From: Cymbomonas tetramitiformis | Lineage: Eukaryota > Chlorophyta > Pyramimonadophyceae > Pyramimonadales > Pyramimonadaceae | Direction: 5' to 3' | Assembly (NCBI GenBank): GCA_001247695.2 | Contig: LGRX02034712.1 | Span: 1 to 64,000 of the forward strand | Length of the DNA stretch: 64,000 nucleotides | In this document: positions 4,364 to 44,550 of the stretch, in pieces | Layout of the letters: the number at the start of each line of letters is the position of its first letter | Numbering within the stretch: position 1 is the stretch's first letter | Made by a program: the position numbers and the translations under genes | The notes under the pieces: generated by a model | Database searches by the model: none | What the model saw: only the letters and a program-made list of their open reading frames with translations | What the model was told of the DNA's origin: nothing

Positions 4364-4545
4364 TGCTGGAACAGTCACACCGCTTGCTTTGTGACTCTTC
4401 CTATAGTAGTGTGTATGACTGTCACCCGAACCCGAACCCTAACTGCTTATGCCCGTTATATCGGGTTAACTTATCAACTTTATTCCATTCTGAGAAAACC
4501 TATCACTGAGTGTATATATCCCGAGTCCTAGGGGTATATCCAACA
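4364..4545 (+). repeat. E1 5' LTR
   Basis: This is the 182-bp 5' LTR with TG...CA ends. It should carry the element's promoter and the R region. It contains a (CCGAAC)(CCGAACC)-like run and the palindromic 'cccgttatatcggg'. It is directly followed by the leader GGTTTGGCCCCACGC. Confidence 0.93.
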
Positions 4546-4560
4546 GGTTTGGCCCCACGC
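4546..4560 (+). promoter_or_regulatory. probable primer-binding site of E1
   Basis: GGTTTGGCCCCACGC abuts the 5' LTR. The same GGT-N-TGGCCC core follows the LTRs of E4 and E5 (ggtcgtggcccc), E6 (ggttatggcccg) and the orphan LTR at 15.4 kb, and a variant follows E2 and E7. Conservation next to the LTR is what a PBS shows; TGGCCCC could pair with a tRNA 3' end, but I cannot name the tRNA. Confidence 0.55.
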
Positions 4561-4943
4561 ACTCTTTATTTAGACACTGCGAAATTTTAGCCATGTCTGG
4601 CTAAACAGCGACGCTTGAGATGGAGTGAGGGGTTCCACTAGAGGCGCGGCGGAGCGGTATGGCCTAGCTGATGCCTGGTTGATTGGATTTACGGGAAGCT
4701 TGTGCACGAGGCGGACTCATTTTCCTCGCTTCGCGTTGGTTGACGTTGGAAATTTTGGTCGGATCCGACACCACTTTCCTTGGCCGCGTCACTCTGGACT
4801 CTGCATCCACATGCACGTGGGGAGATCTTTACGCCACAGTTTTTTCCTTGTTTTCCTCGACAACCGCATTACGACTTTTGGCCGCCGCCCCTTCCGCACC
4901 TCGTCCGATTTACCCTCGCTTCGTCTCTACAGTCTCTTTCACC

Positions 4944-6434
4944 ATGGTTGCGACTAGATTGACCTCAAGTATGGCGTCTCGCCGACGCTCTTTAGCTACG
5001 ATTTTTGACTCCGCTGCAGCACGTAATTCCGTCACGCCGGCTACGCCGGCACCCGCTGGTGCTCCAGCTGCGAACTCCGCACAAGCCGTATTCTTGGCGA
5101 GTGTTCGCTCGCTCACGCGTGAGCGCTTCGACGAGAGCGTGGCGAAGCACGTCATCCGAAAATGCTTTCCGGACAAGCATGACCGATTTACGGGTACGGA
5201 GTCGAACGCTCAGGTGCTCCTCTCCAAGCTGGTGCCTGCTCTCCAGGAGGCATTCGAGGCCGAGGACGCACTGTTTGCCCCTATGTTCGACTTGGAGGAC
5301 TCCACGTTGGCCGTGCGGCCCGAGGCCAACAAGCTCCTCTTCTCCACTCTCGAGCTCATCGTGTCCCCCGCCTCTCCGGCAGGTGACTGGCTCGAGGCGT
5401 CTGCGACCTTGCACCCTCTGGACGGCAAGCGAGCCCTGCTGGAGCTCGCACGGCGTCTCCTAGACTCCGGTGCACCCTTCCAGGGGACATCGGATCTCCT
5501 TGGCGTCCGCTTTAAGGCCCACGCCGATCCGTCCGAGTCCATCACGGACTTCAACGCGGCCTTACGGTCCGCCAAGAGGCGCAACACCCTCGACGATGAC
5601 GAGGTGAAGGAGCTCTTCCTCGCCGCGCTGGACCCTGCTTTCTACGCGCCGGTGGTGTCGAGGCTCTTCACCCACCAGCAGCGAGCGGCCGTGGACCTTC
5701 TTACCATTCAACAATGGGTCCTCGAGTGCTACGCCCGACACGTCGCAGCCGGTACGCACACTGCCTCGTTCGCTCTGTCCGCAGCGGCCGTGGCCACTGA
5801 CGGCGACACCTCGCAGCTGTCCGACCTCACGGCCATCATCCTCGACGTGAAGCGGCAGCTGAAGGTCCTCACGGACAAGGTCAACGGGCGGGGTTTTACC
5901 CCGCGGGCGGACAAGAACAAGATCGGCAACGGGGGAGGCGGCTCCGGTGTTCGTTTTGCGGCAGGTGACCTCCCGACGGGAGGGAACTGGCCGCAGTCGC
6001 AGGTGAGGAAGCGCGTTGCCTTTCACAAAGGCAGCGGCGACTTCATTCCATTCTGCCAAAATTCGACGTGCAAGAACGACGAGGCCCGCCACTGGCACCG
6101 CGACTGCCCGAACGGCGGCAAGCACGGCGCTGGGGGAAGCTTCCACAGCTTCTCCCTCGGTGACATCGAGAACGACTTGCTGGCGGAACAGTTTCAGACG
6201 GCCATGGACGAGCACGACGGCGAGCGGTTCGATGCGCTCTGCCTTCTGGCGGGGGGCAAGCCGGAGATGCTCGACGGCGTTTCGGCGTGTTCCTTCGGGA
6301 TCGCGCCGGGGCGGGAAGATGGTGCGTTGCAGGAATTCCTGCCCTACTGCCAGCCTGCCACCCACATGGGCGGCTTCACGGTCGGTGGTGTCGGGAACGG
6401 GAACTCGGCAGCCGCTTGCACGCATGTCCGATAG
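4944..6434 (+). CDS. Gag-like protein of E1 (capsid-like plus zinc knuckle)
   Basis: A 496-aa product from an ATG in good context (accATGg). The frame is open upstream but has no ATG, and the homologues start at the equivalent Met (MVTTANR in E6, MGVTTR in E4 and E5). Residues about 35-270 align in pattern with the E3-E6 proteins: ERFDESVAKHVI, DKHDRFTGTES, the block DGKRALLELARRL, then TDFNAALRSAKR. This is a helical capsid-like region. A zinc-knuckle variant follows at C371, C376, H383, C388 (HWHRDCPNGG). It presumably packages element RNA into particles. It ends at an amber codon, after which the same frame stays open to 7271. Confidence 0.85.
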   Translation: MVATRLTSSMASRRRSLATIFDSAAARNSVTPATPAPAGAPAANSAQAVFLASVRSLTRERFDESVAKHVIRKCFPDKHDRFTGTESNAQVLLSKLVPALQEAFEAEDALFAPMFDLEDSTLAVRPEANKLLFSTLELIVSPASPAGDWLEASATLHPLDGKRALLELARRLLDSGAPFQGTSDLLGVRFKAHADPSESITDFNAALRSAKRRNTLDDDEVKELFLAALDPAFYAPVVSRLFTHQQRAAVDLLTIQQWVLECYARHVAAGTHTASFALSAAAVATDGDTSQLSDLTAIILDVKRQLKVLTDKVNGRGFTPRADKNKIGNGGGGSGVRFAAGDLPTGGNWPQSQVRKRVAFHKGSGDFIPFCQNSTCKNDEARHWHRDCPNGGKHGAGGSFHSFSLGDIENDLLAEQFQTAMDEHDGERFDALCLLAGGKPEMLDGVSACSFGIAPGREDGALQEFLPYCQPATHMGGFTVGGVGNGNSAAACTHVR

Positions 6435-7271
6435 GACCCACCGCCGGCTCCACCGCCGGCGGCAATCGAGCATGTTTACCCGGACGAGTCGGAAGCGTCC
6501 AACACCGGAGACATGATGCCGGTGGACCCCATGCACGCGCACGAGCCCGACCTCTGCTTTGCGGACAAGATCGCACGGATGGGGGGACTCTCGATCACGG
6601 CTGGGGCAAGGACTTCGCGATGCGGTACATGCACGCCGAGTCCGGAGACCGACTCTTGCGACGGCGACGTGGACGACTCGGCAGGGTGTGACTTTGTTGA
6701 CGGTGGGGATGCGTTCCCGCGCCCTACAGCATCTCGTCCGGGATGCGGTGCACCGCCTTGGGGGTTTGCCCGCTCTTCGGCGATTGCGGTAATGCTTTGT
6801 GCGTTCTTTTGTGTATGCGCCACCGCGGCGCCACTCGCAGCTGCCGCCCCTGGCGAGGCATGTGCACCGGACCACACCGGCCTGGAGGTCGGTGGTGCTG
6901 CTGAGACAACCGACAACGAGCCTGCATTCTCTTTTGCGGTGCCGACTGCTATTCCGCCGCATCGGCAGACGCGGTATCGGGAGCTGCGACAGGGATTCCA
7001 CACTCTCCGCAATGTCCCGCGGCCGCCATGGCTGTATAATCCCGACCCTGATTATGTTCCACAGTCACCACCTTACCCGCCACCGCCGTACTCGTCCGAT
7101 GACGAGGAGCAGAGCTCTGGAGACCAAGCGGCTGTGCGTGACGATCGGCAAAATTCGGATTCCTTTTCTGGCTCTACGAATGATTCAATCACGGCATCGA
7201 CATCTTCAATTCACGGCACCATGACTGTGCTGCGGGCCGGCACAACAGTGCCACCGCCAGCTAGTGGCTAG
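6435..7271 (+). CDS. C-terminal membrane part of the E1 Gag protein, after in-frame TAG
   Basis: The reading frame of the E1 Gag continues without shift past a single TAG (6432-6434) to a stop at 7271; an ATG pair occurs at 6513. The segment matches the C-terminal third of the uninterrupted E5 protein in layout: acidic stretch, PPWGF motif, hydrophobic segment at about 6774-6850 (IAVMLCAFFCVCATAA), basic RQTRYRELRQG, then a Pro-rich tail with PPPPYSSDDE. PPPPY fits a PPxY late-domain pattern, but its role is inference. It is made either by stop readthrough or by internal initiation, or the TAG is a recent nonsense mutation. Confidence 0.7.
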   Translation, partial: DPPPAPPPAAIEHVYPDESEASNTGDMMPVDPMHAHEPDLCFADKIARMGGLSITAGARTSRCGTCTPSPETDSCDGDVDDSAGCDFVDGGDAFPRPTASRPGCGAPPWGFARSSAIAVMLCAFFCVCATAAPLAAAAPGEACAPDHTGLEVGGAAETTDNEPAFSFAVPTAIPPHRQTRYRELRQGFHTLRNVPRPPWLYNPDPDYVPQSPPYPPPPYSSDDEEQSSGDQAAVRDDRQNSDSFSGSTNDSITASTSSIHGTMTVLRAGTTVPPPASG

Positions 7272-7459
7272 GAAGTTAATCATGCCGCTCCTGCACAGTG
7301 AGATTGACCGTAGCTGTATGTGCAGAGGGGTCCGATCACGGACCGGTTTCAGATTTGCAACTCTTGATTCGGAACAGCCCTGCCAGAAAGGACAGGCCTT
7401 CCCTTAGAACTCAATTTCCACCGTTCTAGATGGTGTTTGTTCACAGGTTTCACCTTCGG

Positions 7460-7485
7460 TTAGCCAGTCACCACCCTAGGTGGTG
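7460..7485 (+). promoter_or_regulatory. 3' hairpin abutting the E1 3' LTR (possible PPT substitute)
   Basis: CACCACCCTAGGTGGTG folds into a perfect stem and ends flush with the LTR start. An equivalent hairpin ending in GGTGGTG precedes the 3' LTR of E2, E4, E5, E6 and E7 and three orphan LTRs. The site occupies the place of a polypurine tract. Confidence 0.6.
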
Positions 7486-7667
7486 TGCTGGAACAGTCAC
7501 ACCGCTTGCTTTGTGACTCTTCCTATAGTAGTGTGTATGACTGTCACCCGAACCCGAACCCTAACTGCTTATGCCCGTTATATCGGGTTAACTTATCAAC
7601 TTTATTCCATTCTGAGAAAACCTATCACTGAGTGTATATATCCCGAGTCCTAGGGGTATATCCAACA
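7486..7667 (+). repeat. E1 3' LTR
   Basis: 182 bp, identical by eye to the 5' LTR, followed by target duplication CCATA at 7668-7672. Confidence 0.93.
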
Positions 7668-7672
7668 CCATA

Positions 7673-8021
7673 TGTTAACTGTGTGAGAACCTGGATGGCC
7701 CATATTCGACCCCATATCCCGATATTTCTCTGGATCTTGTCTCCCTTGCCTTCTGTACTAAATTCTGGTGCTGACACATCGGACGACATCGACACGTCGG
7801 ACTACAAGCAGGCGCAAGCGTATTCCGATTGTTATTTTTATTTTCGTCAAGCGATGCAAATCTATGATTTTTAAATTTATAATTTCAGCGTCGGCATATA
7901 AAATTGAAAATATAAAAATACTACGATTCCAAAATTCAAGATAATAGATATGAAGGTTATATGATTCCGGGGGGTTGGACCCCTCCCAGTTGAAAATGTG
8001 CCCTTAAAAATACCTGGCAAC
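7673..8021. other. intergenic, no gene recognised
   Basis: AT-rich spacer between E1 and E7. It has no recognisable coding or RNA feature. Confidence 0.4.
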
Positions 8022-8185
8022 ATCATGGGAACACTGACTTTCACCCCCCATAAGGGGGGAGGTCTGTGGTGCCCTGGCGTGTCACCCCTCGCCTGCTCGG
8101 ATGTCACTTGCAGAACCTGCTGTCTGCTCCGCTCGTGTGTCACGGTCCGTCCGCCAGCTTAAACTCAATTATCTTACAGTTTAAT

Positions 8186-8420
8186 TGACGGAGATGCCAA
8201 CTTTCCCCCCATAGGGGGGGAGCAGTGGTGCACCTTTCTGTCACCCCTCGCTTGGCTGTCACTTGCAGTGCTGTCCGTGTCACTGTGTCACCGGCTCCCG
8301 AACCCTAAAGTCTACTCAACATTTGTTATTATCAACTTTAGACTTCACCAGCTCGACACGACTGCCTTTTCCGCTTCACAGTGACAGTCAATATATATTC
8401 ATATATCTCCTGTTCTATAA
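8186..8420 (+). repeat. E2 5' LTR
   Basis: 235 bp, containing a 'ccccccataggggggg' inverted repeat. It is followed by the leader GGTTATAGCCCACGC, a PBS candidate. Confidence 0.9.
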
Positions 8421-10601
8421 GGTTATAGCCCACGCACCTTCAGTGTTAGCTTGGTTTTTGTTCTCTGGTTCGCTTCGCGCCCTGCGACTCTAACCGACAT
8501 CTATTCGACATCTCCGACATCCCGACATCAGCGCCGAACCGCCTTGCATCAGCACCGGCCGACACAACATTAAGCCGCCTCCCGACATCTATTCGACATC
8601 TACCACCGTTTTTTTTTTTTGCTGCACACCCAGTGTGCTCAAATTCACCGCTGGACAAACGTTATTTTATTCCCGCAATGGCCTCTACCCGACGTGAAGG
8701 TCTTGGTTCGGCTCTGCGCGCTGCCCGCGCGCGGGGAGCCTCCACCCCGTCACATTCGCCCTCGGGATCACAGAGTACCCCTCTTTCATCCCGTGGACGC
8801 CGTAGGATTGTAGGGACGTCTTCATTGCGGTCTAAGCCGACATCATCGGTCGACGCCCCGACGGCTTTCGACTATTTCAACGACCCCGACGTGTTGGGGA
8901 CCACGCCCGTGGAGGAAGGCCGCGAGGATGAGTACGTCGACCAGCTGGCTTACGCTTTTCAGAACGGCAGCGATCTTCTGTCCTTCCTCAAGTCCACTGG
9001 TCTCAAGATGCCCGCTGGTTTTACTCTGGACGCTGCTACTGCCGACGTTGACTTCAACGCCCTGCTTTCTGGATTGGCCCACGTGCTGTATCCCGTGTCT
9101 TATCACGAGGCAGCGAAGCTTCTCGACCTGGAGCACGACCACGAGTTTTACCACGTGACCGTCAACGAGCTCCTCTTCAGCATTTTGCCGCATCCACTTC
9201 GTGGTAACGCTCTCAGCGTGTATCACGAATGTGCCCGCCACCACCCCGCCGACGGCCGCTACGCACTGCAGCGGCTGCGCTACGAGGTCGAGGGCGTGCC
9301 CGACTCCGACGGCATGCGTTTCTGGACCCAGCTGCGGGCGGTTGTGCTCACCGAGATCGAGGACCCCGCCCCACAGCTTGCCCTGATTCGACGCCTTGGT
9401 GACCGCCACCAAAAGCTGAAGCCCAACTACAGCGACTCGGACCGCGTTGCGGACCTTTGGCACGTGTTGTCCGAGTCCGCCAAGAAGTCACCGTACGTAG
9501 CCCCCCTTTACTTGGTTGTGCTACGGGAGTTGCGGGCGGGTGCCACGTTCACCTTCGCCCGCCTTGCACTCCGCATCCGCCTTGCATTTCGGGACGAGCG
9601 AGAGCCCCCTCGCCACACTCTCTCCCTCTTCCGCCCCTCCCGCCGCTTCCGACATCCCGCCCGAGGGTTCCGGCTACCGCCCCAAGGGTGGCGGCCAGAA
9701 GCCCCCTCAGCACACTCCTCGCCCCGTTGCCATGGCCCTCCGGGCGCAAAAGCAATCCATGGCGCCCTTGGAGGGCAAGTGGGTGGCCGACACGCCCAAC
9801 TCGCTCTACCGCAAGTGATCGGGTAATGGATTCCCCTGCACCGTGTGCTTCCGGCTCTGGAACGTCACGGACGCTCATCCCGACACGCGTGGTGCGTGTC
9901 CCTGGGTATGCATCGAGGCCTTCGCCAACGACAAGCACTTGGAAATGTCTAAGCCGGCCGCCTCCCGCCCGTCCCTCGACGCGTCCGCTGCTGTGATGGC
10001 GTTGCCACCGCCCGCAGTGGACACGCCCGTCCCACCTGTTGAGGGCCCGACGGCTGCTGCATTTCACTCCGTGCGGCTTACTGAGCTCGCACCTGGTGGT
10101 GGCAACGCGATCGACCCCGTCGGCACCAGCGCTCTGGTGGTGCCTGCGGAGGATGCGGACGCCTCCCCGCCGCCCGATGAACCTGAAGAGCCTGCCTGCT
10201 TCAAGGTATGGTATCAGTTGTGCTGATATTCGGATTTATCGATATATCAGAAAATCAGTATCAATTGATGACCAACGAAATTTTGAATATCAGAATTATT
10301 GGTATCGATTGATTGATTAGGACGACATATCAATATCAATCGATAGACCCCTCGGAATATCGGTATCGATCGTTTGACAGTGGTAGCATATCAATATCGA
10401 TTGATTACCATCGTCGATTTGCGATATCACTTGTATTTGATATATCAAAATATCAAAAACCGATCCGGGACAATGCAAAAACTGGGGCTTGATAGACCCA
10501 TAGAGACGATTACGAGTCCTGGTTCAGGACCTGTTGCACCCTCGATCGATTGATCTTTGATTATCTAGAAGTAACGAAAATTTAAACAGGGTATCCGAGG
10601 G

Positions 10602-10943
10602 TATCCGAAGAGAGATCATCATCATGGGAAACGTGGGCGTGGCAGTAAACGCCAAAGTGCCTCCGGTGTAACCCTGCGTGCTCAAGGAACCGGGCATGTC
10701 AAGAGAACCCAGCAGTCCCCTTTCGGTCCTGCTGGAAGTGATGAGGTAGACTATGTCGTGCGCATGATAAAAGCGGAACGCCTATCTGGAGCAACCCCAC
10801 AATGGTTGATAGGTTGGGAAGGGTATAGTGACGCCGCGGATACTTGGGAGCCGATAGAGAACTTAGTCAGCCATGAGCAGGAGATTGCCGCTTTCCGTGA
10901 AAGGCGTAAGGAGGAGGTCGCGGAAGAATCGGCCGTTGCCTGA
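10602..10943 (+). pseudogene. chromodomain-coding part of the hAT element
   Basis: The open frame reads through a basic AT-hook-like stretch (GKRGRGSKR) and then a chromodomain: VDYVVRMIKAERL, WLIGWEGYSDAADTWEP, then IENL. The aromatic and WEGY...DTWEP positions of the chromodomain fold are present. It ends at a stop at 10943, overlapping the next coding stretch in another frame, so the original fusion to the transposase was broken by deletion or frameshift. The usual N-terminal DNA-binding module of hAT transposases is a BED finger, so a chromodomain here is notable. Confidence 0.75.
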
Positions 10944-11224
10944 AATTCCTGCAGAGCTGAAAGAGGTGAAGGAGAAGAGTGAGCTTGAACTGTATTTAGA
11001 GTTCCCCTTGGCTAAGAAAGATGTGGAGGTGCAAGATTGGTGGAGAGAAAATGGGAACACGTTCCCTTCAGTCGCTAGAATGGCTAGGCAGTTCTTGGGT
11101 GTGCCTGCCTCCACTGCGGGGGGGGGAGCGTGCGTTTTCAATAGTAACTGGCATGCACTCAGATTTGAGGAAGAATTTGAAAGAGGGTACAATAGAGCAC
11201 TCGCTTATGGCTGCATTGAATTAG
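10873..11224 (+). pseudogene. hAT transposase C-terminal dimerisation domain, frameshifted
   Basis: DVEVQDWWRENGNTFPSVAR and MARQFLGVPAS match the hAT C-terminal pattern W-W-x-FP-x-LA-x-L-x-P(A/S)S. After a run of nine G at about 11117-11125 the conserved continuation GGERAFSIVTG...RKNL is found in another frame (to 11224), while the original frame runs on to 11229. A one-base slip in the homopolymer explains this. No catalytic DDE residues are present. Confidence 0.85.
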
Positions 11225-11847
11225 GTTAGACAGGTATAGTTGAACATATCATACCGCTCTGTTTTGTTGTAAGTGTTAACTGCTTAGAGCTCAAACACAT
11301 TTTGATATATTGATAATATTGATATCCCGATATATCAGTAAATTTAAAGTGATATCAATATTGATTGATTGGCACCCCTAACATATCAAAATCGATTGAT
11401 AGAGCCTCTAAAGTATTTGAATCAATCGATTAGACCGCTAGAAAAATCGAAATCGATTGATATAATCTTGAAATTATTGGAATCAATTGATTATTGGCCC
11501 GAAAATATCAGAATCAATTGATAATGCCACCCACAACCGATACCATACCTTGGCCTGCTTCGGAGCCGCATTTGACGATGAGGACGACACCGACTGGCCG
11601 GCCCTCCGCTCTTCGCCGATTTGGTTGCCCAAGTCCTCCGCTGTCACCGGCGATGTGCATGGCGACTTCCCGAAACCCTAAGTATCGGACTAGAGATGTG
11701 AATGCAACTAGCGCCACAGCATGGATTTGGTTCTAGCTAGGTTGAAAAAGGCCTCTTAGAGTTGACATTTGACATTTCTTTTAGCCGCCTGTCCGGGTGT
11801 ACCGGCTGGCCCTGCAGTGCACCTCCCGCCTTCGGGATGAGGTGGTG

Positions 11848-12082
11848 TGACGGAGATGCCAACTTTCCCCCCATAGGGGGGGAGCAGTGGTGCACCTTTC
11901 TGTCACCCCTCGCTTGGCTGTCACTTGCAGTGCTGTCCGTGTCACTGTGTCACCGGCTCCCGAACCCTAAAGTCTACTCAACATTTGTTATTATCAACTT
12001 TAGACTTCACCAGCTCGACACGACTGCCTTTTCCGCTTCACAGTGACAGTCAATATATATTCATATATCTCCTGTTCTATAA
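11848..12082 (+). repeat. E2 3' LTR
   Basis: 235 bp, preceded by the hairpin CACCTCCCGCCTTCGGGATG-AGGTGGTG. Confidence 0.9.
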
Positions 12083-12249
12083 TTAATCCGACTTTAGCCG
12101 AACCGAAACCCTATCTCACTGCCTATCATTTTCCAGTGCAAGCATATATATATTCTATATTATCTGCTTTCACATCAGGTCTGGACCCACCTACGTTCAA
12201 AGGTGTTGTTTCTTACGTTCTCCATCCGCTTCGCGCCCTGCGATTCTAT

Positions 12250-13685: not shown

Positions 13686-13690
13686 GCAAC

Positions 13691-14946: not shown

Positions 14947-14947
14947 G

Positions 14948-15409: not shown

Positions 15410-15425
15410 GGTTTGGCCCCACTTA

Positions 15426-15542
15426 TGGCTACTACCCAAATTCATGGTCCTACCACAAGGACCAATGGGCAATTGCGGTTTCGATCATTAAATCGACTAT
15501 TTGAGGCACAGGCAACATTTGCACATGATATTTATGAGTTAA
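15426..15542 (+). mobile_element. fragment of the TGGCTACT TIR element
   Basis: About 117 bp, nearly identical to the reverse complement of the right end of the element at 42862-43939, starting TGGCTACTACCCAAATTCAT. The match ends at 15542, so this is a truncated copy or a shorter family member. Confidence 0.75.
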
Positions 15543-32475: not shown

Positions 32476-32730
32476 TGCTGGAATCTGTATAGGCAGCCCT
32501 GACTGGGAGTCCCGGTGCAGGCCCCTATGACAGACCCCTAGGACCAACACTGGACTGCTGACTGATCTATAGGTTCGTGCTGTGACACACGCTGTGTCAC
32601 AGGTAGGCTAGTATCCGAGACCGTTGCGAGACCGTTCCGGGTATATCTAGCTTAGGGTTTATTATCTTATCACGGTTTATCCACACAGTTCGGGACCCTC
32701 TGATATCTAGTGAACTAGGATATTCCGGTA
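32476..32730 (+). repeat. E4 5' LTR
   Basis: 255 bp, followed by the leader GGTCGTGGCCCCATCCACGC (PBS candidate). Confidence 0.93.
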
Positions 32731-33870
32731 GGTCGTGGCCCCATCCACGCTTTATTCCACTTGCTAGTTTGGCCATGGTTGGCTAAACGGCCGCTCGGAG
32801 AGGTGGTGCGCGTTTGCGCGTTTGGGCATTGGTGGAGATTATGAGATGAGCGGCTTGCGGTGAGCGACTTTGGGCCGCAGCTATGGGGTCCCGGCTTGGA
32901 TTGGGTTTCGTCGTCGCAATGTTCATTATTCACGGTTTTCTGCTCGCTCTGATCCTGCCTGCTACCGTATTTTGGGCTGGTGACCTTGGCACCTTTGACT
33001 TCGACGACATCTTCCTTCGCCCCTCGCTAGCATGGCCCGACCGCTCTTTCCGTGTCTGTGACGTCACATTTTCTCTGCGACCCTACCCAAACGTGTTACA
33101 GCGTACCGCCTCCCCTCAGGCCTTTCTAGAGATGGGAGTAACCACGAGATCCAAGAAGTCCCTCACGAGGGACAGTGACATCGATGCCTCTTTGAGGTTG
33201 ATCGACGGGGTGCGGAACACACCGACAGCGGCTACGCCTTTTGTTCCTACCCCCAACCCTGCATCAAACGTAGACGAGGACGTGGCCGTCAGGCGTTACC
33301 TGCAGGAGCAGTCCAAGCTCGTCGACGAGATCTACAAAGCGCGACTCCATCGGGCTTGGGCCAAGAGTATCCGTGAGGATATTCTTGGTGACAAGAAGCA
33401 TCATTTTCGCGGTACGGACGACGCTGGCCTTCTGTCCGACCTGGTGGTGCAGCTGCGTACGGAGTTTCAGTCGGCCGGGCTGGAACTGTGTGCCTTTGAC
33501 CTCGACGACCCCCTGGCCCCCGTGGTCAACAAGGTGAATGGGCTTCTCTACGACGTCCTTGCCCTGGTGGTTGAGAAGCACAGCAACGCGTTCGTCTGGC
33601 TGATTGGTACCGATTCTTCGACTGACCGAGATGGACGGCGAGCCCTTGTCGACATCATCAAGGGTTGTGTTCCGGTGGCGCTACGAGAGTCGCAGCAGGA
33701 GGAGCACGCCGCGTTGCGTTATCCCGCGAACGTTGACCCGCAGCCGATCTTGGCTAAGGAACAACGTTTGGTGCGGGATAACCGAGCTTCCGACTGGACA
33801 CCGACCGAGGCCACGAGGAAATTGAGCCTCTACACCCGACTCGACCCGACCTTCTACGCTGCGGTGAAGG

Positions 33871-34047
33871 TGCTGGAATTGACACTACGACTAGTTCGTA
33901 CAGTCTAGTGTCATTCCTGTATGTCATCTTCGGTGGTCAGCCTGTGTCACTCATCTCGGGTATACATCGTTTGTATATCCGAGTTTAGTGATCCGTTGTT
34001 TCACCGTCGGCAGCGGGTCCCCACTGCCTGAGCTGCTGTTTCCAGCA
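33871..34047 (+). mobile_element. solo LTR inside the E4 gene
   Basis: 177 bp with terminal inverted TGCTGGAA...TTTCCAGCA, flanked by GAAGG (33866-33870 and 34048-34052). E5 shows the empty site. It resembles the orphan LTR at 24473-24648 and probably arose by LTR-LTR recombination. It introduces a stop after 33908 in the host frame. Confidence 0.93.
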
Positions 34048-35215
34048 GAAGGTCCGCTATCCCATGACCGCTGACTTGGCGCATGTGTCACTGGTCTCGC
34101 TCCGTTCCATGGTTGTGGAAATTTACCAGGGTTGGGCGCAGACGGGCGGGGGGAAGGTGGCTTCGGGCGCGGACGGCGTCTCCGCGCACCTTTCCAGCAG
34201 CGAGTACGACGCCCTTCTCCAGAAGATCACGGAGCTGAAGGAGCTCGTGCAGCGGCAACAAGGTGAAGCCGCTCCGGTTGTGCGGCAACAACGGGAGCGG
34301 GTGCAGCAGCGGCAGCAGCAGCAGCGGGGGCAGCAGCCGCGGGGATTCCGTGTGGGGACCCACAAAGCCCCGCCAGTGGGGTTCGACCGCGACGATCAAC
34401 GGGCGAAGCCGTTCTGCGGTAGGTGCAAGAAGGCGGGAAAAGGTGAGGCGTATCACTTTTACCGCGACTGCCCGTTGGGCGGGCGCCAACACCCGCCCAC
34501 CTCTGCCGCGGCATTTTGCGTTCCCATCGACGAGGAGGACGCAGAGGGGGTGCACGCACTCGCCATGTGTGCGTTGTTCCAGCAGGCGGCGGATGACGGG
34601 GCGGAGTCCTTCGCACGTGCGGCAGCCGCGTACGGGCCGCCCGCAGTGCTTTGTGCGGGAGCAGTGGGCGGCATCGACGTCTCCGCCTACGGCTTCACCG
34701 TGGAGCAGCAGCCGGCTTCCGAGGGAGATGACATTCTCCGCCGGCTCGACGATCTTGCCGCGGAGGTTCACTCCGCTGCCAACCCGCAGGTGCATTGCAC
34801 TCACGCATCTTTCCCGCCTTCTGCCGGCAACGGGCAGGGGGCTTCGGCTCTGGTGTGCGGACCCGCCGCAGCGGTGGCCACACCGGAGGGGCAGGTTCCG
34901 GCAGGTGGTGCGGCGGCATCGACATCCGCCGTGCCGGCCCCTGCTATGCCTGTCTCGCAGGGAGAAGATGTGAAGCCCGCGCCACTTCAGTCGGCGCGGG
35001 TGACCACCACAGCGGACACGGACGGTGAGTTCGCTGGGTTCGTTCAGACCGTGAACCACGCCGCCATCGGACCGGTTGATCTCACGGGTTACGACACGGA
35101 CGATTACGAGGACCTCGCTGACGGCAGCTTCGTCGTGAAGCCGCGGGCTTCGGCCATCTCGGCAAATCACTCGTCGACGCCCGCGGCCCGAGCGCCTCAC
35201 TCTGGTGGTGCTCTG

Positions 35216-35470
35216 TGCTGGAATCTGTATAGGCAGCCCTGACTGGGAGTCCCGGTGCAGGCCCCTATGACAGACCCCTAGGACCAACACTGGACCGCTG
35301 ACTGATCTATAGGTTCGTGCTGTGACACACGCTGTGTCACAGGTAGGCTAGTATCCGAGACCGTTGCGAGACCGTTCCGGGTATATCTAGCTTAGGGTTT
35401 ATTATCTTATGAGAGTTTATCCACACAGTTCGGGACCCTCTGATATCTAGTGAACTAGGATATTCCGGTA
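35216..35470 (+). repeat. E5 5' LTR
   Basis: 255 bp; leader GGTCGTGGCCCCATCC follows. Confidence 0.93.
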
Positions 35471-35870
35471 GGTCGTGGCCCCATCCACGCTTTATTCCAC
35501 TTGCTAGTTTGGCCATGATTGGCTAAACGGCCGCTCGGAGAGGTGGTGCGCGTTTGCGCGTTTGGGCATTAGTGGAGATTTTGAGATGAGCGGCTTGCGG
35601 TGAGCGACTTGGGCCGCAGCTATGGGGTGCCGGCTTGGATTGGGTTTCGTCGTCGCAATGTTCACTATTCGCGGTTCTCTGCTCGCTCTGATCCCGCCTG
35701 CTGCCGTGTTTTGGGCTGGTGACTTAAGCACCTTTGACTTCGACGACATCTTCCTTCGCCCCTCGCTAGCATGGCCCGACCGCTCTTTCCGTGTCTGTGG
35801 CGTCACATTTTCTCCGCGACCCTACCCAAACGTGCTGCAGCGTACCGCCTCCCCTCAGGCTTATCTAGAG

Positions 35871-38387
35871 ATGGGAATCACAACGAGATCCAAGAAGTCC
35901 CTCACGAGGGACAGCGACATCGACGCCTCTCTGAGGTTGATCGACGGGGTACGGAACACGCCGACGGCAGCTACGCCTTCAGTTCCTACCCCCAACCCTG
36001 CATCGAACGAAGACGCGGACGTGGCCGTCAGACGTTACTTGCAGGAGCAATCCAAGTTGGCGGACGAGATCTACAAAGCGCGTCTCCATCGGGCTTGGGC
36101 CAAGAGTATCCGTGAGGATATTCTTGGTGACAAGAAACATCATTTCCGCGGTACGGACGACGCTGGCCTTCTGTCCGACCTGGTGGTGCAGCTGCGTACG
36201 GAGTTTCAGTCGGCCGGGCTGGAACTGTGTGCCTTTGACCTCGACGACCCTCTGGCTCCAGTGGTCAACAAGGTGAATGGCCTCTTGTACGACGTTCTGG
36301 CTCTCGTGGTGGAGAAGCACAGCAACGCCTACGTCTGGCTCACTGGTACGGATTCTTCGACTGACCGAGATGGACGGCGTGCCCTTGTCGACATCATCAA
36401 GGGCTCTGTACCAGTGGCGCTGCGGGAATCGCAGCAGGAGGAGCATGCGGCTTTACGTTATCCCGCAAACGTTGACCCGCAGCCGATTTTGGCTAAGGAA
36501 CAGCGTTTGGTGCGGGATAACAGGACTTCAGACTGGACTCCGACCGAGGCAACACGAAAATTGTCTCTCTACACCCGCCTCGACCCCGTGTTTTACGCGG
36601 CGGTAAAGGTCCGCTATCCCATGGCTGCCGACCTGTCCCACGTGTCCCTTGCTTCTCTTCGCTCCTTGGTGGTCGAGATTTATCAGTCTTGGGCGCAGAC
36701 GGACGGGGGGAAGGCAGCTTCTGGTGCGGGCGGGGTCTCCGCACACCTCTCCAGCAGTGAGTACGATGCGCTGCTCCAGAAGATCACGGAGCTGACGGAG
36801 CTCGTACAGCGGCAGCGGGGTGAGGCCGCCCCGGTTGTGCGTCAACAACGGGAGCGGGTGCAGCAGCGGCAGCAGCAGCAGCGGGGGCAGCAGCCGCGAG
36901 GATTCCGTGTGGGGACCCACAAGGCCCCACCGGTGGGATTCGACCGTGACGATCAACGGGCGAGGCCGTTCTGCGGTAGGTGCAAGAAGGCGGGGAAAGG
37001 TGAGGCGTATCACTTCTACCGCGACTGCCCGTTGGGCGGGCGCCAACACCCGCCCACCTCTGCCGCGGCATTTTGCGTTCCCATCGACGAGGAGGACGCA
37101 GAGGGAGTGCACGCACTCGCCATGTGTGCGCTGTTCCAGCAGGCGGCGGATGACGGAGCGGAGTCCTTCGCGCGTGCGGCAGCCGCGTACGGGCCGCCCG
37201 CGGTGCTTTCTGCGGGAGCGGTGGGCGGCATTGACGTGTCCGCCTACGGCTTCACCGTGGAGCGGCAGCCGGATTCCGAGGGGGACGACATTCTCCGCAG
37301 GCTCGACGATCTTGCCGCGGAGGTTCACTCCGCGGCCAACCCGCAGGTGCATTACACTCACGCATCTTTCCCGCCTCCTGCCGGTGACGGGCAGGGGGCT
37401 TCGGCTCTGGTGTGCGTGCCCGCCGCAGCGGTGGCCACACCGGAGGAGCAGGTTCCGGCAGGTGGTGCGGCGGCATCGGCATCCGCCGTGCCGGCCCCTG
37501 CTATGCCTGTCTCGCAGGGAGAAGATGTGAAGCCCGCGCCACTTCAATCGGCGCGGGTGACCACCACAGCGGACGCGGACGGTGAGTTCGCTGGGTTCGT
37601 TCAGACCGTGAACCACGCCGCCATCGGACAGGTTGATCTCACGGGGTACGACACCGACGATTACGAGGACCTCGCTGACGGCAGCTTCGTCGTGAAGCCG
37701 CGGGCCTCGGCCATCTCGGCAAATCACTCGTCGACGCCCGCGGACCGAGCACCTCACTCTGGTGGTGCTTTGGAGGATTGGCGTGAGGGTGCTCCCCGCA
37801 GCTACGGCTGTGGAAAGCCTCCGTGGGGCTTCCCCGCCCATGCGGGCTTGTGGGGGATGCCCTTCCTTCTCTCTTTCATTCTCTTGATCTCTGTCGTGGG
37901 AGTAGGAGCAGCCACCTACACGGTGGCCAACGACGTCGACCCTGTGCAGGTATCGGGTCGGGCTGCGCTGCAGCCTGTGCTGTGCAGGAGCGAGGAGTCA
38001 CCGCTTGACGCGGTGCCATGTGCCATCCCGCCTCGTCGCCACCGGCGGGTGCAGCGGCGGCAGGGCCTCTACATGGCTCCGGTGCCGTGGAATCCCGGAC
38101 CGCCGCCCCCTGGCATCTTATTTGAGGGCGGTCCTCCGTTGTCGCCGGCATCGTCTTCGGATGACGAGGCGCCACCTTCGGGCAGCACTTGGCAGCACCC
38201 TGGTGCGGTGCAGCCTCCCGTGATCGACGGATCAACAACACCGACTCCGTCAAATTCTCTGGCGAATGATTTCTCGGTGATCGACACCTTGCACTTTGGC
38301 AGCCCTGTGTTACTCCGCCGTGCCACGGTGGACTACTACAGTGCTCGTTGTGGTGACGGTGCTCCTCTGGCCATTGACCCCGAGTAG
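35871..38387 (+). CDS. Gag-membrane polyprotein of E5, 838 aa, intact
   Basis: Start chosen at ATG 35871 (MGITTRSKKSLTR), matching homologues. An in-frame ATG at 35622 would add 83 residues with a hydrophobic, signal-like N-terminus. Residues about 45-290 are a helical capsid-like region (KHHFRGTDDAGLLSDLV, DRDGRRALVDIIKG, YTRLDPVFYAAVKV). Residues 323-341 are Q/R-rich. The zinc knuckle is C368-x2-C371-x9-H381-x4-C386. Residues 400-655 are an acidic, Ala-rich linker. A single hydrophobic helix sits at about 664-685 (FLLSFILLISVVGVGAA), followed by a basic RRHRRVQRRQG segment and a Pro-rich SSDDE tail. Likely role: assembling RNA-containing particles, perhaps tethered to membrane. No protease or polymerase motif. 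Family unnamed. Confidence 0.88.
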   Translation: MGITTRSKKSLTRDSDIDASLRLIDGVRNTPTAATPSVPTPNPASNEDADVAVRRYLQEQSKLADEIYKARLHRAWAKSIREDILGDKKHHFRGTDDAGLLSDLVVQLRTEFQSAGLELCAFDLDDPLAPVVNKVNGLLYDVLALVVEKHSNAYVWLTGTDSSTDRDGRRALVDIIKGSVPVALRESQQEEHAALRYPANVDPQPILAKEQRLVRDNRTSDWTPTEATRKLSLYTRLDPVFYAAVKVRYPMAADLSHVSLASLRSLVVEIYQSWAQTDGGKAASGAGGVSAHLSSSEYDALLQKITELTELVQRQRGEAAPVVRQQRERVQQRQQQQRGQQPRGFRVGTHKAPPVGFDRDDQRARPFCGRCKKAGKGEAYHFYRDCPLGGRQHPPTSAAAFCVPIDEEDAEGVHALAMCALFQQAADDGAESFARAAAAYGPPAVLSAGAVGGIDVSAYGFTVERQPDSEGDDILRRLDDLAAEVHSAANPQVHYTHASFPPPAGDGQGASALVCVPAAAVATPEEQVPAGGAAASASAVPAPAMPVSQGEDVKPAPLQSARVTTTADADGEFAGFVQTVNHAAIGQVDLTGYDTDDYEDLADGSFVVKPRASAISANHSSTPADRAPHSGGALEDWREGAPRSYGCGKPPWGFPAHAGLWGMPFLLSFILLISVVGVGAATYTVANDVDPVQVSGRAALQPVLCRSEESPLDAVPCAIPPRRHRRVQRRQGLYMAPVPWNPGPPPPGILFEGGPPLSPASSSDDEAPPSGSTWQHPGAVQPPVIDGSTTPTPSNSLANDFSVIDTLHFGSPVLLRRATVDYYSARCGDGAPLAIDPE

Positions 38388-38716
38388 TTATGTTTCTGGT
38401 TCTGGCAGTACACCACTTTCATGGTGGTGTGCTGAGATGTACTTTGACCTCAACACGGTCTTCAATCTGGTTTATGCTTTTGCTTTGACAACTTTGAACT
38501 CTTCAATCTGACTTGCTGACACAGTGCCTTTCAGTAGTTTGGCAGGACCTATATGCCTGTATGTTTCTGCACTTGTGCCGGCTAGAGGGTTTCAATTTGT
38601 GTATCAGAATTGCACAGTTGAATTAGCAGTTAGGTTTGTCACCCTAGCTCCTACCCTAACTTATCTTAACATTCTGACTCTCCTAGACAGTCACCACCCA
38701 CAGTGCTGGGGTGGTG

Positions 38717-38971
38717 TGCTGGAATCTGTATAGGCAGCCCTGACTGGGAGTCCCGGTGCAGGCCCCTATGACAGACCCCTAGGACCAACACTGGACCGCT
38801 GACTGATCTATAGGTTCGTGCTGTGACACACGCTGTGTCACAGGTAGGCTAGTATCCGAGACCGTTGCGAGACCGTTCCGGGTATATCTAGCTTAGGGTT
38901 TATTATCTTATGAGAGTTTATCCACACAGTTCGGGACCCTCTGATATCTAGTGAACTAGGATATTCCGGTA
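38717..38971 (+). repeat. E5 3' LTR
   Basis: 255 bp, identical by eye to the 5' copy. Confidence 0.93.
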
Positions 38972-40197
38972 CTCTGGGAGATTGGCATGACGGTACTCCC
39001 CGCAGCCACGGCTGCGGAAAGCCTCCGTGGGGCTTCCCCGCCCACGCGGGCTTGTGGGGGATGCCCTTCCTTCTTTCCTTCGTTCTCTTGATCTCTGTCA
39101 TGGGGGTAGGAGCTGCCACCTATACGGTGGCCAACGACATCGACCCTGTGCAGGTATCGGGTCGGGCTGCGCGGCAGCCTGTGCTGTGCAGGAGTGAGGA
39201 GTCACCGCTTGTCACGGTGCCATGTGCCATCCCGCCTCGTCTCCACCGGCGGGTACAGAGGCGGCAGGGCCTCTATATGGCTCCGGTGCCGTGGCATCCC
39301 GGGCCGCCGCCGCCTGGCATCTTATTTGAGGACGGTCCTCCGTTGTCGCCGGCATCGTCTTCGGATGACGAGGCGCCACCGTCGGGCAGCACTTGGCAGC
39401 ACCCTGGTGCGGTGCAGCCTCCCGTGATCGACGAATCAGCAACCCAGAATCCGTCAAATTCTTTGGCGAATGATTTTTCGGTGATCGACACCTTACACTT
39501 TGGCCGCCCTGTGTTACTCCGCCGTGCTACTGCGGGCTACTACGGTGCTCATTGTTGTGACGGTGCTCCTCTGGCCATTGACCCCGAGTAGTTGTGTTTC
39601 TGGTTCTGGCAGTACACCACTTTCATGGTGGTGTGCTGAGATGTACTTTGACCTCAACACGGTCTTCAATCTGGTTTATGCTTTTGCTTTGACAACTTTG
39701 AACTCTTCAATCTGACTTGCTGACACAGAGCTTTTCAGTAGTTTAGCAGGACTTGCATTGCCTGTATATTGCGAGGAAGACAGATACGCTGTCCGGCTAA
39801 GCTCGCTAGGAATCAAACTGATAATCATATAACTTGTGTCTGGCCGAAGCTTTATGCTCTCGGAAACCCAGACAGTGAAACGATGACTGTACTACTGTAC
39901 TGTACTACTGTACAGTATAGTGCTAGGATGTCACGGACACGAGACGGAAGCAGGGTCAGGCTAGGGGCTAGTCAGAGCCCATAATAACTAAGCCTAAACC
40001 CGAAGTCCAGCACACCACCCGTGGGTGTGACTACCTAGCAAGGCAGGTACAGGATATACAGCCACGAGATAACAAACAAACACCTACGTGCAACTCGGTG
40101 GAAACCGATCACTTCTAGCTGGGTGCCGGGGTCTTGACCCGGTCATCCCACTACTGGGCTAAAGCTAATCAAGCTGCCAGGATGATTGACGAAGAAC

Positions 40198-42376
40198 TCA
40201 GCCACTTTGAAGCTGGTCAGCAGAGCTGAGTTCAGCGGTCGGGATGCAAGTACAGAATAACCCCGAAGTGAATTGTAGGTTGCTTGCTACAAATCGAGCA
40301 CCACCAGGCCCAAGTGGGCAAGGTGGATCCACAGTAGAAAGAGAAGCAATTGAAGAACTCAATCGAGCAGGGTCCCACGGCGGTTTGAGCATTGAAGATG
40401 AACACGGAAGAACTCGATCATCTGGCGGCCAATCACGGATGTCCGTAGCACCAAGCGGTGAAACCGAAGCAAAGAGATCTCCAGTAGACCGACGGACGGT
40501 GGCTCCGGGCTCAACCAGGCCCCTGTCACCACCGCCCACGGCAACCAGAGATGCCGTAGCACTGGCCAGCAGAGAGCAACAGAGCATCGAGGACATTAAG
40601 GCACACCGGAGAAAACTCGGCGGAGCCCGTGGACGGCACATCGAAGCTGCTAGTGGCGATGCCCCCCCGTCAAAGTCATGCTCAAGAGTGCCGAAGGAGC
40701 CAAAAGTCACTTGCTGCCCGCCGTCAGAGTCATTGTCAGAGCCTTGGTCGTTGTCAGAGACTTCAGAGCCAATGTCAGAAGCCTCAATTCCCATGCCAGC
40801 AAACAGCGGAGCCGGTGCAGAGTCGCCAAGCTGGAGTGATGGGACAGAGCCAGGCAAGCCGAAAGAGCCAGGGACAGCCACTGGTGGGTCATGAGCCGTA
40901 GGCACACCACCAGCCACGAGTGCAGAGGGATCCCGAACCGCAGGCGGTGGCGGAATCGAGCCCCGTGCACCCGAGTGGAATGTGGCTAGGCCAAACTGAG
41001 CCATGTCGCCCTCGTCAGCTGCCGCATCCTGAGCGGAAGCCGCCGCATCCTGAAAGTGCCGCAGAGATGTGGGCTCAGTCGGCACAAAGGAATGCGCCGA
41101 CAGCTCGACCACCTCCGGGCGACCCTCCATCGTGCAGAGCGACTCGAAGGCATGTTCATCCCCCGCGTCATAGAAACGCTGGAAACGAACAGCCAAGCAA
41201 TCAGTCTCATAGTCTTCAACTGCACCACAATAGTGGGCAGAGTGAAGACCGCCGTTGGGGCATTCAGCATGCCAGTGCTTTAAACCGCTTTGTGCACAGT
41301 CACACCGCATTCTTGCAGTGGGGCACGAAGGCACCACTCTTCTTGTCAAATGAGACAGGAGGAGCGGTGCCAAGCGGCCGAACACCAGGACGAAGATGCT
41401 TGGCAGCAGAGCGGGGAAGGTGCTTGCCCGCAGGCGGCGGCCCTTCCCGCTTCTGCCGCTTCAGGTCACGAATGTCCTGTTGCATGCGCTCCAGCTGCTT
41501 CTGCAGACTGGACAACGCCGCAGTCAGATCAGACGCGCCATCGCCGAATGACAGAGCAGAGACAGGGGCGTCAGAGACTTTCAGGCCGTGGCGGAACTGC
41601 TCCCGCACACGAGCCTGAATAGTCAGAAGAGACACGCCCTGCCGCTGGTCAGCACGAGCCAGGGAATTAGCCAAATCACGGTACAGCCACGAATCGCCGA
41701 GAGCCTTCAGAAACTGCCGCTTCACCGCGTCCTCTGGCAAGTTGTGGGAACGCTGAACGTCCCTCAACAGGCCATTGAACTCGCGGATGCCACGGTCAGG
41801 ATCTTTGCTGCTGGGGATGCGGACCGCCAGCAGCAACTCAAAAGAGTCAAAGGGTTCCGAGCGTTCCTGGAGCATGCGCGCCACCTCAAGGGCAGCGCGC
41901 TTGCCATCCCCAGGAACGTCGGACCCAGAGGCCTCAAGCCAGTCACGAGCAGGTGAGCCAGGGCGAGCCAGAAAAGTCAGAGCCGAGAGCAGCAATTCGT
42001 TCGCCTCATGCCTAGCCTCAACTGCCATGTCAGTCAAGTCAAACAGGGGAGCGAACGCCGATGATTGAAGCACAAATTGCGTGCGCAACTCATGCATCAA
42101 TTGTGAAAAAATGTCCACCGCGTCTGCTTCGGTCCCTGCAAAGCGCTCCGATTTGTCGCCTAGAATTTTGGTGGCAACGGTCTTGGCAACTTTTCTGTCG
42201 AAATTTTCACGAGCCAGCCGCTGACATTTTTCAAGAACCTCTTTCGCAGCCGCAGTGGTCGGAGCTGGCAGCTGCGGCGTGTGCGGTGTCGCAGCGTGCT
42301 GTGCACCAACGTCATCAAAAATCGTTTCTAATCTACGGACGCGAGACCGCGTCACTCTATTCGCTGTGGTAACCAT
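40198..42376 (-). pseudogene. Gag-like gene of E6, one frameshift
   Basis: 42376 to 41300 encodes MVTTANRVTRSRVRRLETIF and a capsid-like region (DKSERFAGTEADAVD, DGKRAALEVARMLQ), a coiled-coil-like stretch (LSSLQKQLERMQQDIRDLKR) and SFDKKSGAFVPHCKNAV-stop. The rest continues in another frame at 41320-40198: zinc-knuckle remainder (KHWHAECPNGG), acidic DNDQGSDNDSDGG, membrane segment (MLCCSLLASATASLVAV) and tail. A one-base indel at about 41300-41320, inside the zinc-knuckle region, separates the halves. A sequencing error there is possible. Confidence 0.85.
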
Positions 42377-42861
42377 GATGGAGAGACAGGGGAGAAGGCT
42401 GAGCTAAACAGGGAGATGGTGTAAGAACGCTTACGGCGGCCAGATGTTCCGTAGAAGCCTCAGTTGAACGGATCGGAATTTACAGGTCGTAAGCGGAAGG
42501 TAAGAGCGGCCAAAATGCACAACGTGTGGAGCGTCCTCGCCAGGGCCAGTGGCGCACGATGCGCATCAACTCTCGTGCGACGATACTGCCGTAAAATAAA
42601 ACACAATCTGTCACAAACTGATCCCCCGCGCAGCGAAGGCGAGCACAACGCGTGCCGCCATCACTGCCATGTCAAAAGGCCATACCGTAAGAGCAATACA
42701 CCACCGCCCAAGTGGGCGCTCAACCCCTCCTACGTCCTACTTAGCCGAACATGGCAACAGCAAGGCGCTGTGCCATCATCAGAACCACCGGAAAGCCGGT
42801 GCGGGCCATAACCTGCGAGGAAGACAGATACGCTGTCCGGCTAAGCTCGCTAGGAATCAAA

Positions 42862-43939
42862 TGGCTACTGCCCCGCAGTCCTTGTGGTAGGACCAAATCG
42901 ACGATTTGGTCCTACCACGAGGACCATTGTTCCGATAATTTAATTGGCCATCTCCCGTGATTTGTGGTGTCTAACCAATGAAAGGTGGTATATGTAGGTC
43001 CTATATTAATTTATTTGAACGCTGGTTTGGCCTATATCCATCCCATATATCCATGACGAATGCATTTCAAACCTCTAAACTCAAATTTTTCAAAACGGAT
43101 TTTTTGGAACATTCAAAATGTGGCAAATTAGTGACACATCTTCAATAATTTTTTACCAATCATATATCAACACTACACCTGCGCGGATACCATCAAATTG
43201 AACCTATACATATGCCCCAATCATATTTGGGCGGCATGCCCGGTTGGAATGCATATATTGGCTCGTTGGCTCGTTGGCTTCCCCTCTAATATATTGGCTC
43301 GTTGGTTTCCCCCCTAAAACAGTGGTCACGCGAGCTGACCAGCCAGCCATCATAATTGCTTGCTAGAGGGCATATATCGCAAGGTTGGTGTGTGCGGCAC
43401 ATTAAATCTTCAATTATATATGTATTGCGAATTTCTGAAAGTCTAACATCATCCAAATATCTTAGTTTTCGACTGGCGTGTACAGTTTAGAATGGATGAA
43501 TGCCAAATTCTAAAGTCCGAAATTCACTAAATTCGGAATTTGCATTGTGTTGAACATGCGCCATGCTGAAATAGAGCGGAAATGATGATGAGGGTGCGAA
43601 GTAACCGATTCAGTTATCTTATTTGGTCATAAACTCAAGATATATAACCATGAGCATCACCGTGAGCCCCGCATGTGACTCCTAATACTCAAAATACGGT
43701 GGTCCTTGTGGTAGGACCACCATTTTCTTCAAGCTTTTGGTGAAATTACACCCCTAAAGCGTGTCGTTCAACCACACACCTAAAGTCTCATGGGGGCCGC
43801 CGTTATAAGAAATAAAATTCATTTAACTCATAAATATCATATGCAAATGTTACCTGTGCCTCAAATAGTCGATTTAGTGATCGAAACCGCAATTGCCCAT
43901 TGGTCCTTGTGGTAGGACCATGAATTTGGGTAGTAGCCA
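42862..43939. mobile_element. TIR element (TGGCTACT...AGTAGCCA), 1078 bp, in the E6 LTR
   Basis: 8-bp perfect terminal repeats are flanked by a 4-bp duplication CAAA (42858-42861 and 43940-43943); the left E6 LTR shows the empty site. Several inverted copies of GTGGTAGGACCA lie within, including a near-perfect palindrome at about 42882-42920 (ggtaggaccaaatcg / cgatttggtcctacc). No protein is encoded, so it is non-autonomous. A second copy end lies at 15426-15542. Superfamily not identified. Confidence 0.88.
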
Positions 43940-44295
43940 CAAACTGATAATCATATAACTTGTGTCTGGCCGAAGCTTTATGCTCTCGGAAACCCAGACA
44001 GTGAAACGATGACTGTACTACTGTACTGTACTACTGTACAGTACAGTGCTAGGATGTCACGGACACGAGACGGAAGCAGGGTCAGGCTAGGGGCTAGTCA
44101 GAGCCCATAATAACTAAGCCTAAACCCGAAGTCCAGCATATATTTCTGCTCTTGTGCCGGCTAGAGGGTTTCAATTTGTGTATCAGAATTGCACAGTTGA
44201 ATTAGCAGTTAGGTTTGTCACCCTAGCTCCTGCCCTAACTTATCTTAACATTCTAACTCTCCTAGACAGTCACCACCCACAGTGCTGGGGTGGTG

Positions 44296-44550
44296 TGCTG
44301 GAATCTGTATAGGCAGCCCTGACTGGGAGTCCCGGTGCAGGCCCCTATGACAGACCCCTAGGACCAACACAGGACCGCTGACTGATCTATAGGTTCGTGC
44401 TGTGACACACGCTGTGTCACAGGTAGGCTAGTATCCGAGACCGTTGCGAGACCGTTCCGGGTATATCTAGCTTAGGGTTTATTATCTTATCACAGTTTAT
44501 CCACACAGTTCGGGACTCTCTGATATCTAGTGAACTAGGATATTCCGGTA
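44296..44550 (+). repeat. E4 3' LTR
   Basis: 255 bp, preceded by hairpin CACCACCCACAGTGCTGGGGTGGTG and followed by target duplication AGGCG. Confidence 0.93.

Follow-up and report, generated by a model that had tools for sequence, protein, structure and literature searches.

The window analysed here is a 64-kb stretch of genomic DNA from the prasinophyte alga Cymbomonas tetramitiformis, whose 851.7-Mb assembly (25,745 contigs) was also searched, and it carries several long terminal repeat (LTR) elements that encode a Gag-like protein and no polymerase. Our analysis reveals that a C-terminal hydrophobic segment is a real, selected feature of Gag in a large family of such elements, represented in the window by E1, E3, the tandem array E4/E5 and E6. 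These are non-autonomous Gag-only LTR retrotransposons resembling the TR-GAG elements of plants; E2 belongs to a separate family. Gag-only LTR elements as such are already known. With modest confidence we lean towards a reading in which these TR-GAG-like elements would use the segment as a signal-anchor that tethers Gag and RNA to the endoplasmic reticulum (ER), and in which Pol would be supplied in trans by copia elements. The accessible parts of two papers on the Cymbomonas genome (PMC10675990, PMC5741210) report abundant LTR and unclassified repeats and contain no description of these elements.

Conservation of the hydrophobic segment and selection on it

Among 181 proteins collected, 102 fit the zinc-knuckle pattern and 83 have at least 200 aa after the knuckle; the maximal Kyte-Doolittle hydropathy over 19 residues (KD19) is at least 1.6 in 64 of these 83 tails. 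In a stricter count, restricted to 67 proteins with at least 280 aa after the knuckle and defining the segment by a 17-residue value (KD17) of at least 1.6 located at least 120 aa after the knuckle, the segment was detected in 60, and 52 of those 60 also possess the GCG motif. These counts leave aside the 79 proteins without a knuckle match and the shorter-tailed proteins, and the proteins counted are mostly gene models of one species, so that they describe conservation across copies and subfamilies rather than across species. Random shuffling of the tails (2000 times each) reached the 19-residue maximum of the E1 C-terminal part in no case and that of E5 in 14 cases.

All 66 proteins matched in the search with E5 are annotated in C. 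tetramitiformis. The 120 listed of 174 matches to the segment-bearing family are likewise all from Cymbomonas, except for two environmental proteins from metagenomes (P0174 and P0175), which are too short to reach the position of the segment. Three scans of viral contigs revealed no relatives.

The ratio of non-synonymous to synonymous substitution rates (dN/dS, omega) was estimated codon by codon for E1-family copies from 20 genome regions (17–24 copies depending on the part of the gene, at least 10 per codon), with stops and frame-broken parts omitted and array units separated by position. Omega is 0.11 (bootstrap interval 0.08–0.14) for the N-terminus and capsid-like (CA-like) region, 0.09 (0.04–0.18) for the knuckle region, 0.42 for the post-knuckle part and 0.77 (0.55–1.07) for the linker before the segment; it falls to 0.21 (0.07–0.62) in the segment, a value that comes from only 20 codons and from copy pairs that are not independent, and rises to 0.97 (0.60–1.86) just behind it and 0.61 (0.47–0.78) in the rest of the tail. 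Because the segment has a high synonymous diversity (0.263, above that of its flanks), the constraint acts on the amino acids. The E4/E5 duplicate pairs agree, with 0.06 in the capsid-like region, 0.37 in the C-terminal part and 0.16 in the segment, the last value representing four synonymous and two non-synonymous changes. Thus, the segment is under purifying selection between near-neutral flanks, and the original claim of a conserved membrane segment in Gag-only elements is supported.

The elements and their Gag proteins

The elements were delimited by self-comparison of the window and by reading of their ends (coordinates refer to the window):

4364–7667, + strand: E1, Gag-only LTR element; LTRs 4364–4545 and 7486–7667, target duplication CCATA
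4944–6431, + strand: E1 gag, N-terminal region, CA-like region and zinc-knuckle variant (6054–6107); in-frame stop at 6432–6434
6435–7268, + strand: E1 gag, C-terminal part; acidic linker, GCGxPPWGF (6741–6767), segment (6774–6833), Pro/PPxY/SSDDE tail
8186–12082, + strand: E2, LTR element; member of a separate Gag-only family that lacks the membrane segment; duplication TTAAT, host site an older LTR copy
25031–28409, - strand: E3, Gag-only LTR element; duplication TAGCT, segment 25812–25868
32476–44550, + strand: E4/E5 tandem array; LTRs 32476–32730, 35216–35470, 38717–38971 and 44296–44550, single outer duplication AGGCG
35871–38387, + strand: E5 gag, one frame from MGITTR; zinc knuckle 36972–37028, GCGKPPWGF 37806–37832, segment 37857–37913
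38972–39591, + strand: array unit 3, partial; 3' part of gag, segment 39061–39117
39770–44138, - strand: E6, Gag-only LTR element inside array unit 3; duplication ATATA, segment 40546–40602
42858–43939, - strand: insertion of about 1.1 kb with inverted ends TGGCTACTACCC, dividing the E6 5' LTR

Six elements with LTR pairs and 5-bp target duplications had been predicted, and this description holds for E1, E2, E3 and E6. E4 and E5, by contrast, are not independent insertions but belong to the same array (order LTR-int-LTR-int-LTR-partial int-LTR), which a single outer duplication encloses. Such tandem arrays recur in the genome, two loci (L040 and L041) having three consecutive LTRs each. Of 12 E1-family genome copies whose two LTRs both lie in the fetched sequence, nine have an exact 5-bp duplication, two have one mismatch and one has none. 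The LTR pairs are identical in E1 (182/182), E2 (235/235) and E5 (255/255) and nearly so in E3 (191/194). Among the copies in the window, the gag of E5, an element that the original prediction had called intact, is alone in being open in one continuous frame: that of E1 has the stop upstream of the hydrophobic segment, that of E4 is interrupted where the CA-like region ends, that of E3 is in pieces (27583–26816 and 26843–25431, with homology extending to 27844) and that of E6 spans two frames (42376–41303 and 41460–40201), the frame breaks in E3 and E6 lying upstream of or within the zinc-knuckle region. The insertion in the E6 LTR is probably a DNA transposon; a second fragment with TGGCTACTACCC ends (15423–15542) is located in the primer site of a further E1-like LTR.

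The predicted lack of a pol gene was corroborated: eight gag pieces scanned against profiles gave no pol match, no pol was recognised among window element frames of at least 180 aa, and neither the reading of frames nor the profile scan of gag pieces detected an RVT_2 reverse transcriptase in the Gag-only elements. The precomputed Pfam annotation contains no reverse transcriptase domain in the 66 matches of E5 or in the 120 listed of the 174 further matches, all candidates being restricted to at most 1.75 times the query length. We rejected two candidates for a more complete element. P0095, a predicted protein with an RNase H domain, was judged a gene-model fusion of Gag with a fragment of the LINE (long interspersed nuclear element) type. 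L014/L039, considered as an autonomous E1, has an E1-type LTR, but its homology to the leader extends over no more than 204 bp, after which come hAT-like sequence and Ty3 pol; it is treated as nested insertions because a second E1-type LTR is absent from the 13.8 kb examined.

The Gag proteins of E1, E3, E4/E5 and E6 are mutually related (E1a-E6a E-value 2e-59, E1a-E3a 6e-26, E1a-E5 2e-17; pieces of broken genes were compared separately) and share a basic N-terminus, a helical CA-like region, the zinc-knuckle variant, an acidic linker, the GCGxPPxGF motif (missing from E3 and E6), the hydrophobic segment and a variable Pro-rich tail. The segment thus occurs in four LTR subfamilies of the window, instead of five as had been claimed, and the common gene layout proposed for all the elements applies to these four, E2 being of another family. 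Its C-terminal end is looser than proposed: a basic patch is found in 17, SSDDE in 16 and PPxY in nine of the 60 segment-bearing relatives. The proline-rich stretch after the segment (median 127 residues) is of several unlike types, one of them common to different subfamilies. A hydrophobic leader upstream of MGITTR in the E5 subfamily was considered as a signal peptide and rejected, its E4/E5 dN/dS being 0.76 (16 differences) versus 0.06 in the adjoining region; the sequence before MGITTR is probably 5' leader RNA and not protein.

The search with the E2 family returned 53 matches, those listed all being from Cymbomonas except for the metagenome proteins P0191, P0203, P0208 and P0218; the longer ones mostly have 500–540 aa and many finish near a D.DWPALR..P.W.P motif. 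The 20 E2-family proteins of at least 450 aa showed no membrane segment (the top KD19 anywhere is 1.77, in the N-terminal half), and the Gag of E2 itself has none, with a best KD19 of 1.04. Profile comparison matched the CA-like regions of the E2 family and the other family (hhalign 94.6%, E-value 7e-8; 86.9% in a second comparison). The C-terminal D.DWPALR..P.W.P motif is conserved in the E2-family Gag (8678–9823; P0183, P0203, P0208, P0218), and Gag-only proteins of this family with the motif also occur on metagenome contigs of about 2.4 kb. The interior of E2 also includes a chromodomain-like and a hAT-like fragment (10222–11560).

Copy number, junction motifs and candidate copia helpers

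The junctions between the LTRs and the interior contain the following features:

4546–4562, + strand: E1 primer-binding-site region GGTTTGGCCCCACGCAC, directly after the 5' LTR
7466–7492, + strand: junction box AGTCACC...GGTGGTG/TGCTGGA at the start of the E1 3' LTR (slash: LTR boundary)
38689–38723 and 44268–44302, + strand, and 40006–40032, - strand: the same junction box at the 3' LTR starts of the E5 array and of E6

The exact 17-base primer-site region of E1 has 518 copies in the genome (reversed control: none). At 29 of the first 30 loci the sequence runs on into E1-type sequence past 300 bp, in some cases broken by insertions; at L014 it ends after 204 bp. Two sequences flanking the LTRs are conserved, namely a GGT.. 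block after the 5' LTR, which is a putative primer site, and GGTGGTG ahead of the 3' LTR. In the 64 kb, the pattern AGTCAC[AC]..TG[CT]TGGA was found four times, always at the start of a 3' LTR (E1, twice in the E5 array, and E6); 20 Markov controls contained none. The box was found in 10 of 17 E1-family loci, the second LTR lying within the fetched part in only 12 of the 17. A CACCAC..GTGGTG inverted repeat (7466–7485 and equivalents) adjoins the 3' LTR, in the position of the expected polypurine tract.

A genome search for RVT_2, in which 150 of 2,783 candidates were scored, revealed many frames longer than 2,300 codons. Two Ty1/copia elements were analysed: L066 (2,360-codon frame with RVT_2, LTR pair 99.8% identical) and L067 (located by its RVT_2 match, 2,045-codon frame, LTR pair 98.8% identical). 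Directly after the LTR, L066 reads GGTTATGGGCCCAC, compared with GGTTATGGCCCGCAC in E6 and GGTTTGGCCCCACGCAC in E1; L066 and L067 have CTAGACAGTCACC before the 3' LTR, as in E5; and the LTR begins TGTTGGAATCTGTA in L066 and TGCTGGAATCTGTA in E5. The junction box is also present at the 3' LTR of L066 and, with TATTGGA, at that of L067. Both copia frames lack a comparable segment before residue 1000, where KD19 does not exceed 1.24 (L066) or 1.37 (L067); past it, in the polymerase part, both have more hydrophobic stretches (up to 1.93). We regard L066 and L067 as candidate helpers of the Gag-only elements. Homology between the Gag proteins themselves is only suggestive: a profile of 14 copia Gag sequences (two plus 12 of 15 loci; L079, L080 and L081 were omitted as broken or lacking the region) aligned with the Gag-only profile with an hhalign score of 20.5 that none of 100 column shuffles reached, the hhalign probability being 1.1%.

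Proposed membrane tethering, its alternatives and known systems

Topology was studied in 22 proteins of our choice (five window pieces and 17 relatives). All contain a run of at least 20 residues free of R, K, D, E, H, N and Q. R/K residues number 41 in total in the 20 positions preceding the core and 13 in the 20 following it, which predicts an N-in/C-out orientation. Small residues at positions -3/-1 behind the core occur in all 22 and would allow cleavage by signal peptidase; this is weak evidence in Ala/Gly-rich sequence. Two roles, membrane-tethered particles or an envelope-like function, had been proposed. Tethering is the favoured one, given the segment in 60 of 67 long-tailed relatives and its omega of 0.21 versus 0.77 and 0.97 on its two sides, the localisation being a prediction from sequence. 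The envelope-like role is not supported: the elements show no second frame for an Env protein complete with signal peptide, ectodomain and membrane anchor, but have one frame with mostly a single segment in the C-terminal half, and the tail is short, proline-rich, of unlike types and near-neutral just behind the segment.

In the mechanism that we propose, most of Gag would be translated in the cytosol until GCGxPPxGF and the hydrophobic segment emerge and act as an internal N-in/C-out signal-anchor, perhaps trimmed by signal peptidase. The signal recognition particle (SRP) would dock the ribosome, Gag and element RNA at the ER; Gag would remain on the cytosolic face, bind its own RNA through the zinc knuckle and assemble there. 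A copia Gag-Pol could then recognise the common primer site, the polypurine-side box and the LTR ends, and supply reverse transcriptase and integrase. The segment would thus be an address for RNA and particle, not an envelope.

Several observations weigh against this reading. The segment is missing in seven of the 67 long-tailed relatives, and the bootstrap intervals of segment and linkers overlap. For E3 and E6, 172 and 260 of 2000 shuffles, respectively, reach the observed maximum; hydrophobicity alone is within chance there, so it is the conservation test that carries the case. Approximate sums of Hessa centre values range from -1.3 to +2.5, being near zero, and positive in several copies. 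The assignment of the capsid-like region to Gag is tentative: the zinc-knuckle variant and the LTR context speak for it, but the region could not be linked to a known family, as no convincing match to Pfam, NCBIfam or PDB profiles was obtained and the sole structure model (full-length) is poor (mean pLDDT 41). With two copia sequences, two of 100 shuffles attained the score, and a Ty3 Gag pair scored 19.8, close to the copia value; because the copia Gag match is weak and the Ty3 pair scores alike, it is the junctions, not Gag, that tie the Gag-only elements to copia. The exact junction box is missing from E2 and E3, the LTR of L067 begins with TATTGG, and, the LTR comparison covering copia elements, Ty3 elements may also be helpers.

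A bolder version, which we consider unlikely, is a satellite swarm in which capsid-encoding elements would form particles on an algal membrane, and perhaps bud through it, by means of a C-terminal signal-anchor that the copia helper lacks; satellite and helper would then have separate assembly sites, or the satellite would produce membrane-wrapped particles. It is similarly doubtful that the segment serves the particle as a soluble helix for oligomerisation or packing: the shuffles of E3 and E6 do reveal moderate hydrophobicity in several copies, but the uncharged run in 22 of 22 proteins, the charge asymmetry of its flanks and KD19 maxima of at least 1.6 in 64 of 83 tails argue for a membrane segment. 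Signal peptidase could instead cut behind the segment and release the tail of about 60–170 residues as a small Env-like or effector product, which would agree with the small -3/-1 residues after the hydrophobic core and with the N-in/C-out charge bias. This is quite improbable, since such residues are frequent by chance in Ala/Gly-rich sequence, the tail evolves with omega 0.97 just behind the segment and 0.61 thereafter, its types are unlike and one is common to different subfamilies, and a further hydrophobic stretch follows the segment in only four of 66 proteins (three best segments per protein). It is very improbable that the proteins form a host gene family carried in LTR-flanked copies: the lack of profile matches agrees with it, but hundreds of primer-site copies, LTR pairs and target duplications around the gene, the zinc-knuckle-like motif and a weak collinear copia Gag match above 100 of 100 shuffles speak against it.

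Signal-anchor tethering of Gag, if true, would place a membrane address in Gag without an envelope gene and represent a route to membrane assembly unlike that of the retroviral matrix. Retroviral Gag assembles on the membrane through its N-terminal matrix domain, often with myristate, and is not known to use a C-terminal hydrophobic segment for this. The proposed Gag resembles the anchored capsid of flaviviruses, in which an internal signal sequence after the capsid protein anchors it in the ER membrane; flaviviruses are an unrelated virus group, and no glycoproteins follow in the Cymbomonas elements. A comparable Gag with a membrane segment inside was not met in our literature searches, which covered a partial set of papers.

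In yeast Ty1, also an LTR element, SRP brings the RNA to the ER and so nucleates assembly, according to the accessible part of PMC3945221; the same delivery of Gag and RNA would operate in Cymbomonas. Ty1 differs in being autonomous and in having a Gag without recognisable signal or transmembrane segment, whereas Cymbomonas Gag has a predicted one near its C-terminus. Plant TR-GAG elements, as defined in PMC6022998, share with the Cymbomonas elements the LTRs and a lone Gag frame without pol, and an Arabidopsis case transposes, with an autonomous relative as a possible helper (PMC8704663); the accessible text of these two sources mentions no membrane segment for plant Gag. In Arabidopsis the Gag-only copy strongly resembles its autonomous relative, whereas Cymbomonas Gag is far from copia Gag and mainly the junctions match. 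RNA packaging and copying of Gag-only elements by the Pol of another element are poorly understood, and both are open to experiment here, given the hundreds of copies, the segment under selection and a candidate helper whose junctions match.

Two pol regions contain a Dam-like domain. In the Ty1/copia pol of L066 (3601–7743) it has an NPPF motif and precedes the integrase (PF05869, E-value 2e-8). The accessible text of PMC5890265 mentions Dam-like enzymes in DIRS elements and no copia or gypsy cases. In the window, a Ty3/gypsy chromovirus pol (49917–53971, - strand) possesses a Dam-like domain (N6-adenine methyltransferase; PF05869, E-value 3e-7) that lies between RNase H and integrase, and is followed by a C5 cytosine methyltransferase frame (49210–49985, - strand; PF00145, E-value 3e-5).

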